Assembly (NCBI GenBank): GCA_009772895.1
Contig: WOUP01000009.1
Location: 1 to 64,000 of the forward strand
Length of the DNA stretch: 64,000 nucleotides
Source of the DNA: Puniceicoccaceae bacterium 5H
GTDB lineage: Bacteria > Verrucomicrobiota > Verrucomicrobiia > Opitutales > Oceanipulchritudinaceae
Reading direction: 5' to 3'
The notes beneath the pieces were generated by a model that worked only from the letters and a program-made list of their open reading frames with translations, had not been told where the DNA came from and made no database searches. Both the position numbers and the translations under genes were made by a program. Shown here piece by piece: positions 39,713-43,077 of this stretch (the stretch's first letter is position 1; each line of letters starts with the position of its first letter).

Positions 39713-41080
39713 ATGATTCGTCACTTTCGCACGTTTAGCACCCTTGCCCTCGCCACGCTGTCGATCGGCAGCGTGCAGGGGCAACTCTTCCCCCTCTCGG
39801 AGAACAGCTGGGACAACCCGGAATTCCGTGAGCGCTTCATGGGCTCTTATGGGGTCGATACCGAGGTGAGCCCGGAAATCTCTCTGGATGAGAAGCAACT
39901 CTTCGAAGAGATCACGCCGCTGATCCAGTCCCAGGACGTCGATGGCGCCATTGCGGCCCTGAAGCGCGGGATTACGCCGCAGTCCAGCGCGGCCTTCGAC
40001 TTCATCCTCGGGAACCTCTACTACCAGAAGCAGCAGCTCGACCCGGCGATCGACGCCTACGAGACCGCGATCAAGAAGTTCCCGAACTTCTACCGCGCCT
40101 ACGTCAACCTGGGCCGCAGCTACGTCAATCAAGGCAACTGGTCCGAAGGTCTCAAGCACCTGCAGAAGGCGATGGAGATCAAGCCCGGTGACGGCACGCT
40201 CTACGGCCTGATCGGCTACTGCTACATGAACGAGGGCAAGTTTGCCACCGCTCTGGACGCCTACCGCATGGCCATCATGCTCCAGCCCGACAGCAAGGAC
40301 TGGAAGCTGGGCAAGCTGAAGTGCCTGACTGCGCAGCAAGAGCACGAAGAGGCCGTGGCCATGCTCTACGAATTCATCGAGAGCGACCCGGAGAATCCCG
40401 AATGGTGGATGCTCCAGGCCAACGAGTTCCTCTCGATGGAAAAGCCGGAGCTCGCCGCCGCCAACCTCGAGATCGTGCGCCAACTGGGCAAGGCCAAGCC
40501 GCAGTCCATGATGCTGCTCGGCGACATCTACGTAAACGAGGGCCTGCTCTCGCAAGCCGTGGAAGTCTATGGGGATGCGCTCGAGACCGGCGAGGTGAAG
40601 CCCGACCGCGTCTTCCGGGTCGGATACTCCCTCTCCTCCCGCGGTAACTACGAAGAGGCCGACAAGCTGATGGAGGCCTACAGCAACACCGAGGCCGGCC
40701 AGAACCTCAACGAGGATCAGCAGCTCGAGCTGCTCAACCTGCAGGCCAAGATCGCCCTGGGCACCAATCAGGACGAAAAGGCCGCGCAGATGCTCGAGCA
40801 GGTCGTGGATCGCGACCCGATGAACGGACGCGCCCTGATCTCGCTGGTCGACTACTACCAGAAGACCGAGGACCTCACCAAGGCCACCTACTACGCGGAA
40901 CAAGCCGCCAAGCTCGACGAGTTCCGCCACTCGGCCCTGCTCGCGCTCGCCCGCATCAAGGTCGGCCAACGCGAGTTCGCCCAGGCCGCCCGCTATTTGC
41001 GCCAGGCACAGGACATCAAGCCACTGGGTTATGTGGCCGACTACTTGGCTCAAGTGGAGAGGGCGGCAGATAGCCAGTAG
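39713..41080 (+). CDS. TPR-repeat exported protein, first TonB operon
   Basis: A 455-residue protein with a signal peptide (STLALATLSIGSVQG). About ten tetratricopeptide repeats follow (for example FDFILGNLYYQKQQLDPAID and ALLALARIKVGQREFAQAA). Its place as the last gene, 13 bp after tonB, matches the TPR partner of Vibrio-type TonB2 systems, where it supports receptor energising at the outer membrane. A rho-independent terminator follows 50 bp downstream, so the operon is DUF3450-exbB-exbB-exbD-tonB-TPR. Confidence 0.88.
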   Translation: MIRHFRTFSTLALATLSIGSVQGQLFPLSENSWDNPEFRERFMGSYGVDTEVSPEISLDEKQLFEEITPLIQSQDVDGAIAALKRGITPQSSAAFDFILGNLYYQKQQLDPAIDAYETAIKKFPNFYRAYVNLGRSYVNQGNWSEGLKHLQKAMEIKPGDGTLYGLIGYCYMNEGKFATALDAYRMAIMLQPDSKDWKLGKLKCLTAQQEHEEAVAMLYEFIESDPENPEWWMLQANEFLSMEKPELAAANLEIVRQLGKAKPQSMMLLGDIYVNEGLLSQAVEVYGDALETGEVKPDRVFRVGYSLSSRGNYEEADKLMEAYSNTEAGQNLNEDQQLELLNLQAKIALGTNQDEKAAQMLEQVVDRDPMNGRALISLVDYYQKTEDLTKATYYAEQAAKLDEFRHSALLALARIKVGQREFAQAARYLRQAQDIKPLGYVADYLAQVERAADSQ

Positions 41081-41130
41081 TCCTTTCACGGTTCCACCGC
41101 TCTCTCAAAACATTACCTGTGCGTCAAAGG

Positions 41131-41166
41131 GAGGGAGACTGTACCTACAGTCTCCCTCTTTCTCTT
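41131..41166 (+). terminator. Rho-independent terminator of the first TonB operon
   Basis: A 13 bp perfect stem (GAGGGAGACTGTA / TACAGTCTCCCTC) with a 2-base loop, followed by a T-rich tract (TTTCTCTTTT), 50 bases after the TPR gene stop. Confidence 0.9.
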
Positions 41167-41237
41167 TTAAAGCGTCGGAAGTGCGTGCCCCACCCTACGG
41201 CTTGCGATTGGCCCCACGCAGCATAAACTGTGGAGAC

Positions 41238-41663
41238 ATGGAGCGATTGACCATCGGCCAGCTGGCCAGACAGACGGGTGTGACCGTCGAGACGCTGCGC
41301 TTTTACGAGAAAGAGCAGCTGTTGCCCCAGCCGATCCGCCTGAGCAACGGATACCGGGCCTACACCCAACAGGCGACCGACCGCGTGGCCTTCATCCAAC
41401 GTTCCAAGGCGCTCGGCTTTTCACTGAAGGAAATCCGCGAATTGCTGGCCTTGCGGCAAGATGAGAACAGCGACGCGGCCGACTACCACCACGTGGTCGA
41501 AGAAAAGCTCCAGCATATCCAGGAAAAGATCGACGACCTCCAGCGGATGCGCGACGCCCTGCAAGGGCTGCTCGAAGCCTGCCCGGGCGAAGGCACGGCG
41601 GAAACCTGCCCCATTGCGCGCACTTTGGCGGGCGATCCCATCGAACACGCAGCTCAGGCTTGA
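41238..41663 (+). CDS. MerR-family metal-responsive regulator
   Basis: A 141-residue MerR regulator. The N-terminal winged helix (LTIGQLARQTGVTVETLRFYEKEQLL) is typical. The C-terminal part has a long dimerisation helix (DADYHHV to RMRDALQGLLEA) and a cysteine pair spaced C-x8-C (EACPGEGTAETCPI), as expected in a heavy-metal sensor of the ZntR/CadR/PbrR group. The ATG at 41238-41240 follows a purine-rich GGAGAC; the frame extends upstream without homology. The stop TGA overlaps the -35 box of a MerR-type promoter, and the gene immediately downstream encodes a metal permease. Confidence 0.92.
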   Translation: MERLTIGQLARQTGVTVETLRFYEKEQLLPQPIRLSNGYRAYTQQATDRVAFIQRSKALGFSLKEIRELLALRQDENSDAADYHHVVEEKLQHIQEKIDDLQRMRDALQGLLEACPGEGTAETCPIARTLAGDPIEHAAQA

Positions 41664-41691
41664 CCCTGTAGTAAGGTCCAGGGTTTAGAAT
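41660..41691 (+). promoter_or_regulatory. MerR-type promoter/operator for the metal permease
   Basis: A -35 box TTGACC (41660-41665) and a -10 box TAGAAT (41686-41691) are separated by 20 bases, the overlong spacing that MerR regulators correct by DNA distortion. A 22-base dyad (41663-41684) with arms ACCCTG and CAGGGT fills the spacer. The permease ATG (41698) begins six bases after the -10, so its mRNA may be leaderless. Confidence 0.8.
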
Positions 41692-41697
41692 AGCCGC

Positions 41698-43020
41698 ATG
41701 AATTGGGTCAGCACCTTCCTCAGCGGCACCTGGAATCTGGTGGCCGAGATGGCGCCCTACCTGTGGCTGGGCTTTGCCATAGCCGCCCTGTTACACGCCG
41801 TGGTGAAGCAGAGCTGGGTGAAAGAGCACCTGGGCAAACGCGGCCTTTGGCAAACCGTCAAAGCGACCCTCATCGGCGTGCCCCTGCCCCTGTGCTCCTG
41901 CGGTGTCATCCCCGTCGCAGCCGGCATCCGGCGGCAGGGTGGCAGTGCGGGGGCCACGGCGGCCTTCACCTCCTCCACGCCACAAACCGGCGTCGACAGT
42001 ATCCTCGCGACCGCGGGCATGATCAGCTGGCCCTTTGCCGGGGTCCGCGTGCTCGTCGCTTCCGTCAGCGGTCTCGTGACCGGTATGCTGGTCGACACCT
42101 TTGGAGATCCGAAGCCGGTGGAGGAAGCCGACCAGGATGAACCGGAAGGCTGCTGCAGCCATGAAAAGGCCGCAGAAACGCACGCCTGCTGCGGAGGCCA
42201 TGAGGCGAAAGAAGAGGCGCACAGCTGCTGTTGCAGTCATGCAGAGGCGGAGGCGCCCGAGCACGACTGCTGCCACGAGCAGGAGGCGACCCAGGGATGC
42301 GGCTGCAGCGGCGAAGCCGAAGCCAAGGAAGCGCACGCGTGCTGCAGTCACACCGCAGAGGAGCAGCCCCACGGCTGCTGTAGCCACGAAGAACCGGCGG
42401 CAGCTTCGTCCTGCTGCTGCTCGCACGAAGATTCCCACGAAGGCGAAGGGCCGCGTTTCGCCTGGGCGGAGGGCTTCCGCTTCGGGTTTCTGACCCTGCC
42501 GCGCGACCTTTCTACCTCCCTGCTCGTCGGCTTCGTTCTGGCGGGTGTATTGACGGTGCTGCTGCCGAGTGGCGCACTCGAGCAATACATCGGCAGCGGC
42601 TGGATGGAATACGTTGCCGCAACCGTGGTGGGCCTGCCCCTCTACGTCTGCGCAACCGGCTCGATTCCGCTGGCGGTGGCACTGCTGGCGGCGGGCCTCT
42701 CTCCAGGGGCGGTCCTGATCTTCCTCATTGTCGGGCCAGCTACGAATATCGCTACGGTCATTGCCCTGCGCCACCTGATCGGCACGCGCTCGACGGTCCT
42801 CTACATCGGCGCGTTGACGGTCATCGCCTGGATTTCAGCCCTGATCGTCGATATGGGGCACTGGAACGTCATCGGCCACGTGCACGACCTGAACCTGCAG
42901 CCCGCCTGGTGGCAGCACGTCCTCGGCGTCGGCCTGATCGCCCTGCTGGCCTGGCCGCTGGTGCAACGTTTCCGGCCCAGCAAGACCGCGGCCACCGGCG
43001 ACTCTTGCTGCGCACATTAA
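41698..43020 (+). CDS. Metal efflux permease with Cys/His-rich loop (SO_0444-type)
   Basis: A 440-residue inner-membrane permease of the DUF318/SO_0444 Cu/Zn efflux type. The N-terminal half has about four helices with the conserved GVPLPLCSCGVIPVAAGI motif, and the C-terminal half repeats the design with VGLPLYVCATGSIPLAVALLAAG and FLIVGPATNIATVIAL. The central soluble segment (about 150-245) contains 18 cysteines in CC, CCC and CGC clusters with many histidines, plus a CCAH end. This could bind and hand over soft metals such as copper, zinc, cadmium or mercury. Regulation by the upstream MerR gene is strongly indicated. Confidence 0.93.
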   Translation: MNWVSTFLSGTWNLVAEMAPYLWLGFAIAALLHAVVKQSWVKEHLGKRGLWQTVKATLIGVPLPLCSCGVIPVAAGIRRQGGSAGATAAFTSSTPQTGVDSILATAGMISWPFAGVRVLVASVSGLVTGMLVDTFGDPKPVEEADQDEPEGCCSHEKAAETHACCGGHEAKEEAHSCCCSHAEAEAPEHDCCHEQEATQGCGCSGEAEAKEAHACCSHTAEEQPHGCCSHEEPAAASSCCCSHEDSHEGEGPRFAWAEGFRFGFLTLPRDLSTSLLVGFVLAGVLTVLLPSGALEQYIGSGWMEYVAATVVGLPLYVCATGSIPLAVALLAAGLSPGAVLIFLIVGPATNIATVIALRHLIGTRSTVLYIGALTVIAWISALIVDMGHWNVIGHVHDLNLQPAWWQHVLGVGLIALLAWPLVQRFRPSKTAATGDSCCAH

Positions 43021-43046
43021 GGCCTCCACTACTTGCCTAAAATAAA

Positions 43047-43077
43047 GCCGAGACACGATCTGCGTCTCGGCTTTTTC
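43047..43077. terminator. Bidirectional terminator between permease and MalY genes
   Basis: An 8 bp perfect stem (GCCGAGAC / GTCTCGGC) with a 9-base loop. T residues follow on the plus strand (TTTTTC) and, after the complement, on the minus strand (TTTATTTTA), so it can end both converging transcripts. Confidence 0.88.

Follow-up and report, generated by a model that had tools for sequence, protein, structure and literature searches.

A MerR-type promoter at leaderless distance ahead of a predicted Cu/Zn exporter gene in a Puniceicoccaceae bacterium and the recurrence of this layout in Opitutia

Introduction

Is the promoter that separates a MerR-family regulator gene from a permease gene in Puniceicoccaceae bacterium 5H a metal switch of the MerR class, would its transcript begin on the permease start codon itself, and is such a layout an oddity of one gene or a habit of the lineage? 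In the established MerR mechanism, metal binding untwists the promoter spacer and aligns the -35 and -10 elements. The rule described for metal-sensing MerR regulators is a palindrome within a promoter spacer of 19–20 bp (PMC1526738). The locus lies in a stretch of 64,000 nucleotides (positions 1 to 64,000 of contig WOUP01000009.1, assembly GCA_009772895.1), here called the window, and all coordinates below refer to its forward strand.

Most discussion of leaderless mRNAs has treated them either as a trait of whole genomes or as isolated curiosities. Leaderless genes have been predicted in many bacteria (PMC3160421), and some Verrucomicrobia have been classed as Shine-Dalgarno-scarce (PMC10783764). 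Leaderless mRNA has been documented in Akkermansia muciniphila, a member of the same phylum, where 10% of the mapped transcription start sites fall at annotated gene starts, compared with 0.4% in E. coli (PMC4782308). Studies of Deinococcus-Thermus have reported a -10 region adjoining the open reading frame as a common expression pattern; the start codon follows the -10 element within a few bp, which gives a leaderless mRNA, as proposed here, but the case is one of a general promoter form and the word MerR is absent from the main text (PMC12340547). CvkR, a cyanobacterial MerR-type regulator of CAST systems, likewise combines the MerR family with a leaderless mRNA; unlike the window regulator it is described as a repressor with a 15-nt motif and not as a long-spacer metal activator (PMC9938897). 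Leaderless mRNAs of Cupriavidus metallidurans include merP, copJ, czcI2, and zniR and make up 4.67% of the primary start sites, and the excerpts of that report do not link them to MerR-type long-spacer promoters as a class (PMC7563307). Among the literature matches listed, none dealt with leaderless MerR-type metal promoters in Verrucomicrobiota.

The promoter, its operator, and the start codon

A -35 element TTGACC (41660-41665) and a -10 element TAGAAT (41686-41691) on the + strand were read directly from the sequence, with a spacer of 20 nt between them (41666-41685). The predicted operator, ACCCTGTAGTAAGGTCCAGGGT, has 22 bp (41663-41684); its dyad arms ACCCTG (41663-41668) and CAGGGT (41679-41684) are 100% complementary, and 7 of the 11 pairs of the whole operator are complementary. 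The earlier note had read these elements as a MerR-type promoter with a 20-bp spacer, and the exact spacing together with the perfect 6-bp arms supports that reading. The promoter 32-mer, with up to three mismatches allowed, occurred once in the window and in none of 100 dinucleotide shuffles, and a degenerate form of the pattern had a single occurrence in the 4.1-Mb own genome. A standard promoter scan with 16–18-nt spacers gave no match between 41000 and 43500, as is expected for a site whose spacer has 20 nt.

The permease ATG stands at 41698, six bases past the -10 element as the earlier note had counted, and the six-base discriminator AGCCGC between them (41692-41697) contains no Shine-Dalgarno core. 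About six bases usually intervene between a -10 hexamer and +1, and the candidate transcription start predicted from this distance is the A of the permease ATG (41698, + strand). The two sequence marks of a leaderless mRNA, a -10 element about 6 nt ahead of the start codon and no Shine-Dalgarno sequence, are thus both present. When the first 60 nt of the predicted mRNA were folded, 191 of 200 shuffles folded at least as well (z 1.5), a weak hint that the 5' end is poorly structured.

The regulator-permease pair in the window and in its family

The regulator gene (41238..41663) and the permease gene (41698..43020) lie on the same strand, 34 nt apart. A hairpin resembling an intrinsic terminator (41128..41161, + strand; -24.7 kcal/mol, z -4.9) lies between an upstream TPR-like gene and merR, and a second terminator-like hairpin follows the 3' end of the permease gene (43044..43074, + strand; fold -18.3 kcal/mol, z -4.6), so that the pair resembles a closed cassette. 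A promoter-like site of merR (TTGCGA, 16 nt, TAAACT; 41202..41229, + strand), a weak consensus match with no evidence of function, ends 8 nt ahead of the merR ATG, a distance at which the regulator mRNA may be near-leaderless too.

A same-strand pair separated by 34 nt could also be read as a leadered bicistronic merR-permease mRNA that starts upstream of merR, with a minor intergenic promoter and re-initiation 34 nt past the merR stop. Shewanella oneidensis MR-1 offers a model for it. There SO_0444 is needed under stress by zinc or copper, its predicted regulator is the neighboring ZntR-like SO_0443, and the two, a MerR-family regulator adjoining the same exporter family as in the window, are described as an operon, which is not the arrangement proposed for the window pair (PMC3219624). 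A gene of the SO_0444 family also rises with Cd and Cu in Nitratiruptor (PMC10092412), and with these two precedents the pairing of a regulator with an SO_0444 exporter is not new. Within the same family, the three genomes of genus g9 (L008, L010, and L017) have merR directly preceding the permease gene, and their MerR-type promoter, with a 19-bp spacer, is placed before merR and not between the genes, as a bicistronic mRNA would have it. The -10 to ATG gap is 6 nt in L010 and L017, while L008 is ambiguous, with a GTG at 6 or an ATG at 18 behind GGAGG. Against a bicistronic mRNA, the window's own genus carries the operator between the two genes, where no other identical stretch of the 88-nt alignment with the congener is as long, and no Shine-Dalgarno core stands ahead of the permease. 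We regard the bicistronic mRNA as unlikely and prefer an intergenic promoter that drives the permease gene.

Permease matches were found in 12 of the 17 family genomes (own genome included and weak matches counted), with a close copy in one, the congener G016. The -35/operator block, GCTTGACCCTGTAGTAAGGT, is identical in G016, and the 20-nt spacer is kept in both congeners; the -10 element of G016 is TAAGCT, its ATG follows 7 nt later, and the discriminator letters have changed. The merR stop codon TGA (41661-41663) falls within the -35 element TTGACC, so that the overlap pointed out in the earlier note is real; it is not conserved, since the congener merR reads past the -35 element and stops inside the spacer, and the overlap was rejected as a conserved device. 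A search of the genome contigs with the permease sequence alone gave no confirmed match. A regular expression for MerR recognized no same-strand MerR gene within 700 bp upstream among the best 80 of 583 confirmed permease-alignment loci, some of which hold less than 700 bp of upstream DNA, and the pairing is uncommon in this 80-locus sample. Three other family members with a permease and no recognized MerR (L005, L006, and L007) have a TTGACC that begins 34–36 nt before a candidate permease ATG, without a MerR dyad; these may be ordinary leaderless promoters or the site of another regulator.

The regulator

The regulator is predicted to be a metal-type member of the MerR family with 141 aa (41238..41663, + strand; PF00376, PF13411, PF09278). 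The longest frame over merR in the list of open reading frames is 41031-41663, and the start at 41238 was picked by codon usage. Both the MerR helix-turn-helix and the DNA-binding domains are present (PF00376 60.8 bits, PF09278 74.6 bits), and the closest structure matches are MerR-family regulators, CueR and CadR among them. Against NCBIfam, the models for MerR, Zn-responsive, CueR, CadR-PbrR, and ZntR regulators rank close together and none reaches its cut-off: the scores are 116.4 vs 167.95 for ZntR (128.1 vs 143 for PRK09514), 118.3 vs 151.45 for CadR-PbrR, 122.1 vs 147.4 for CueR, and 128.1 vs 150.85 for the mercury MerR equivalog TIGR02051. The only cysteines are Cys115 and Cys124, and their positions correspond to the C-terminal cysteine pair in the MerR and CueR structures. 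Ala80 replaces a cysteine found in CadR, presumably Cys77, and in chain 4ua1, which we take to be Bacillus MerR; CueR has Ser at this position. By the description in PMC1526738, metal-sensing members carry two or all three of the metal cysteines, and the regulator has two (Cys115 and Cys124), with Ala80 at the third position.

Comparison of the operator with the consensuses in PMC1526738 gave 15 of 18 positions for the Firmicute MerR 9-4-9 palindrome and 15 of 22 for ZntR. A CueR-type promoter does not fit, as the spacer has 20 bp and not 19 and the match to the ACCTTCC-type operator consensus is 9 of 16. The operator letters are nearest to Firmicute MerR 9-4-9, then ZntR, then CueR. The Firmicute operators also share the 20-bp spacer; those systems differ from the window in that the neighboring gene here is an SO_0444 permease and not a mer gene, and in that one metal cysteine is missing. 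E. coli PzntA shares with the window a 22-bp operator in a 20-bp promoter spacer (PMC1526738). It differs in that the zntA start codon lies 35 nt past the -10 element with a Shine-Dalgarno sequence, and in that the window regulator falls below the ZntR cut-off. The label "ZntR/CadR-like" given in the earlier note is accordingly too specific to stand, in view of the scores below all NCBIfam cut-offs, Ala80, and an operator nearer to Firmicute MerR. On its sequence the regulator is best placed in the MerR family, in the metal-sensing branch, without one canonical metal cysteine.

The replaced cysteine and the scores below every equivalog cut-off would also suit a MerR protein that acts at the operator mainly as a repressor or does not respond to metal, so that the promoter would not be a metal switch. 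Such a reading is quite improbable given that Cys115 and Cys124 are retained at the positions of the C-terminal pair of MerR and CueR, that both congeners keep the 20-nt spacer, and that the neighboring gene encodes a predicted Cu/Zn exporter. A metal-responsive activator remains our preferred reading.

The permease and its start codon

The permease (41698..43020, + strand; 440 aa; NF033936, PF03773) passes the NF033936 cut-off with 337.4 bits vs 300 and is therefore a predicted SO_0444 family Cu/Zn efflux transporter. Codon-usage calling, which is blind to the promoter, selects 41698 as its start. The match to the congener protein (70% identity overall) begins at residue 1, and the N-terminus lines up with those of 10 other order members, whose rows were trimmed at a match-extrapolated position where the upstream DNA mostly shows ATG. 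These alignments support a start at 41698. A true start at the internal GTG (41740) or ATG (41749), both of which are in frame and would give a leader of about 42–51 nt, is scarcely credible, because the N-terminus from codon 1 is common to the congener, relatives align before the internal codons (e.g., at the invariant W12), and no GGAG, GAGG, or AGGA core occurs in the 16 nt ahead of either codon.

MerR-type promoters across the order and the phylum

The promoter patterns used for genome searches were blind to start codons. A strict pattern found 11 sites in 8 of 387 genomes of the phylum (reversed control, 0), and a looser one found 16 sites in 12 of 372 genomes of the order (Opitutia, Verrucomicrobiota; reversed control, 1). 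When the earliest ATG (or GTG) at the head of a long frame is counted as the start codon, it lies 6–11 nt past the -10 element in all 16 order sites (11 at 6, 1 at 7, 2 at 9, and 2 at 11), and some of these sites offer alternatives, namely a later GTG at 15 in merT-type sites and a TTG at 0 in L160 and L161. The genes driven by the sites differ and include a permease, merR itself, and a merT-like gene. These sites are not independent, since nine of the 16 (10 of the 28 pooled below, with L065) are merT-type sites of family f14 and four of them are identical copies in G225. The four copies (L164, L167, L168, and L169) are divergent merR/merT-like units with an identical promoter, which suggests a recent duplication or a mobile element. 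At L231 of G012, a permease homolog is followed directly by a merR-type gene that has a gap-6 promoter of its own.

One pattern site at the class level (G203) has a GTG at 6. A second route, which set out from MerR proteins (present in 20 of 387 genomes), gave 19 MerR loci besides the window and its own-genome paralog L002. Further short gaps were found among these loci at L059, L062, and L073 (5 nt) and at L065 of G293 (7 nt). In all, four class-level loci show gaps of 5–6 nt. Leadered promoters occur at three MerR-type loci of the phylum: L057 has a gap of 30 nt with GGAGG, and L063 and L066 have gaps of about 27 and 39 nt, judged by eye. L075 is ambiguous, with an ATG at 2 or 41. No MerR-type promoter was recognized at L064, L071, L072, L074, or the own-genome paralog L002. 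Pooling the 16 order pattern sites, G203, the three g9 loci, L057, L059, L062, L063, L065, L066, L073, and L075 gave 28 sites, of which 23 have a gap of 11 nt or less, three are leadered, and two are ambiguous.

Controls were taken from 11 plasmid MerR loci of other phyla, picked among 40 matches listed of at least 5000 records, and from E. coli zntA. The filter found six control sites with annotated starts in five loci, with gaps of 15, 18, 32, 32, 33, and 37 nt. Five further sites missed by the filter had, by eye, gaps of about 18, 20, 23, 30, and 32 nt to the annotated start, and at L245 the site was also missed and no annotated gene lies nearby. A gap of 11 nt or less was seen in none of the 12 control sites (range 15–37). 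Judged by the start codons assigned here, the MerR-type promoters of Opitutia thus lie nearly all at leaderless distance. The comparison lends good support to the leaderless or near-leaderless permease mRNA proposed in the earlier note, which had treated the layout as special to the permease gene; it recurs across the order and, being repeated in relatives, would be a local habit and not an oddity of one gene.

The genome-wide signal

A simple gene caller based on codon usage was applied to 644 kb of the own genome and gave 452 starts, and E. coli was treated alike. Shine-Dalgarno cores precede 13% of the own-genome starts vs 10% in a control window, compared with 48% vs 8% in E. coli. The 16S model match in the own genome spans model positions 9-546 only. 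The motif TANNNT at a gap of 5–8 nt was found at 33 starts vs 11.1 expected (E. coli, 0 vs 4.9), and -35-like boxes at leaderless distance numbered 43 vs 14.5 (E. coli, 1 vs 2.8). Two-box promoter-like matches within 150 nt of 449 own-genome starts had gaps of 5–9 nt in 8 of 29 cases, compared with 0 of 11 in the antisense control. Many promoters of this genome lie at leaderless distance, and the sample shows little Shine-Dalgarno signal.

Six relatives were sampled at 100 kb each, and their values are noisier than those of the own genome. Shine-Dalgarno cores were found at 9 vs 6% of starts in G016, 20 vs 17% in G005, 9 vs 7% in G225, 9 vs 8% in G036, 11 vs 7% in G047, and 18 vs 9% in G203. 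TANNNT was in excess in G005 (5 vs 2.0), G225 (2 vs 0.8), G036 (5 vs 2.4), and G203 (12 vs 6.7), and no excess was seen in the 100-kb samples of the other two, G016 (2 vs 2.1) and G047 (5 vs 5.3). An excess of -35-like boxes was seen in G016 (7 vs 1.3), G225 (4 vs 0.8), G036 (6 vs 3.0), and G047 (9 vs 2.8), and was slight in G005 (6 vs 5.0) and G203 (5 vs 3.7).

Proposed mechanism and its implications

The locus is most probably a metal-export cassette in which a MerR-type switch induces a leaderless permease mRNA, in the layout usual for Opitutia. The regulator would probably be expressed from the weakly matching promoter of merR, bind the 22-bp operator in the over-long 20-nt spacer, and keep RNA polymerase inactive at the permease promoter. 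Metal binding would then untwist the spacer and align the -35 and -10 elements, as extrapolated from the established mechanism. Transcription is expected to begin at the permease ATG or within 1–2 nt of it, and the leaderless mRNA would be translated without a Shine-Dalgarno sequence. The switch itself appears to be a known one of normal MerR design, in the leaderless form usual for Opitutia.

A broader reading is possible and is offered tentatively, as it may well prove wrong. Opitutia may keep the MerR metal switch as a compact unit of operator, promoter, and start codon in which +1 is fixed at the start codon, and may as a rule induce resistance genes through leaderless, Shine-Dalgarno-independent translation across unrelated targets (exporter, merT-like gene, and merR). 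If so, the -10-to-ATG distance would itself be under selection, and by untwisting the DNA the regulator would fix the start of translation along with that of transcription. If an inducible promoter class that can be recognized from sequence has its start codon at +1 throughout an order, it would offer a simple model for studying how leaderless translation, induction, and the precision of the start site cooperate where the Shine-Dalgarno signal is low. Gene starts behind such promoters in Opitutia would be predictable from the -10-to-ATG distance. What merits the attention of specialists is how uniform the leaderless habit is within a single inducible promoter class.

A Cys/His-rich loop in the permease

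The permease contains a Cys/His-rich loop (42151..42420, + strand; residues 152-241) with repeated CC-H blocks, in which 18 of the 23 cysteines of the protein are located. A long loop is also seen in the congener (L004). In the alignment the other ten relatives from the order have a shorter loop or none, and a few CC motifs persist in some of them. The loop could buffer metal or hand it over.
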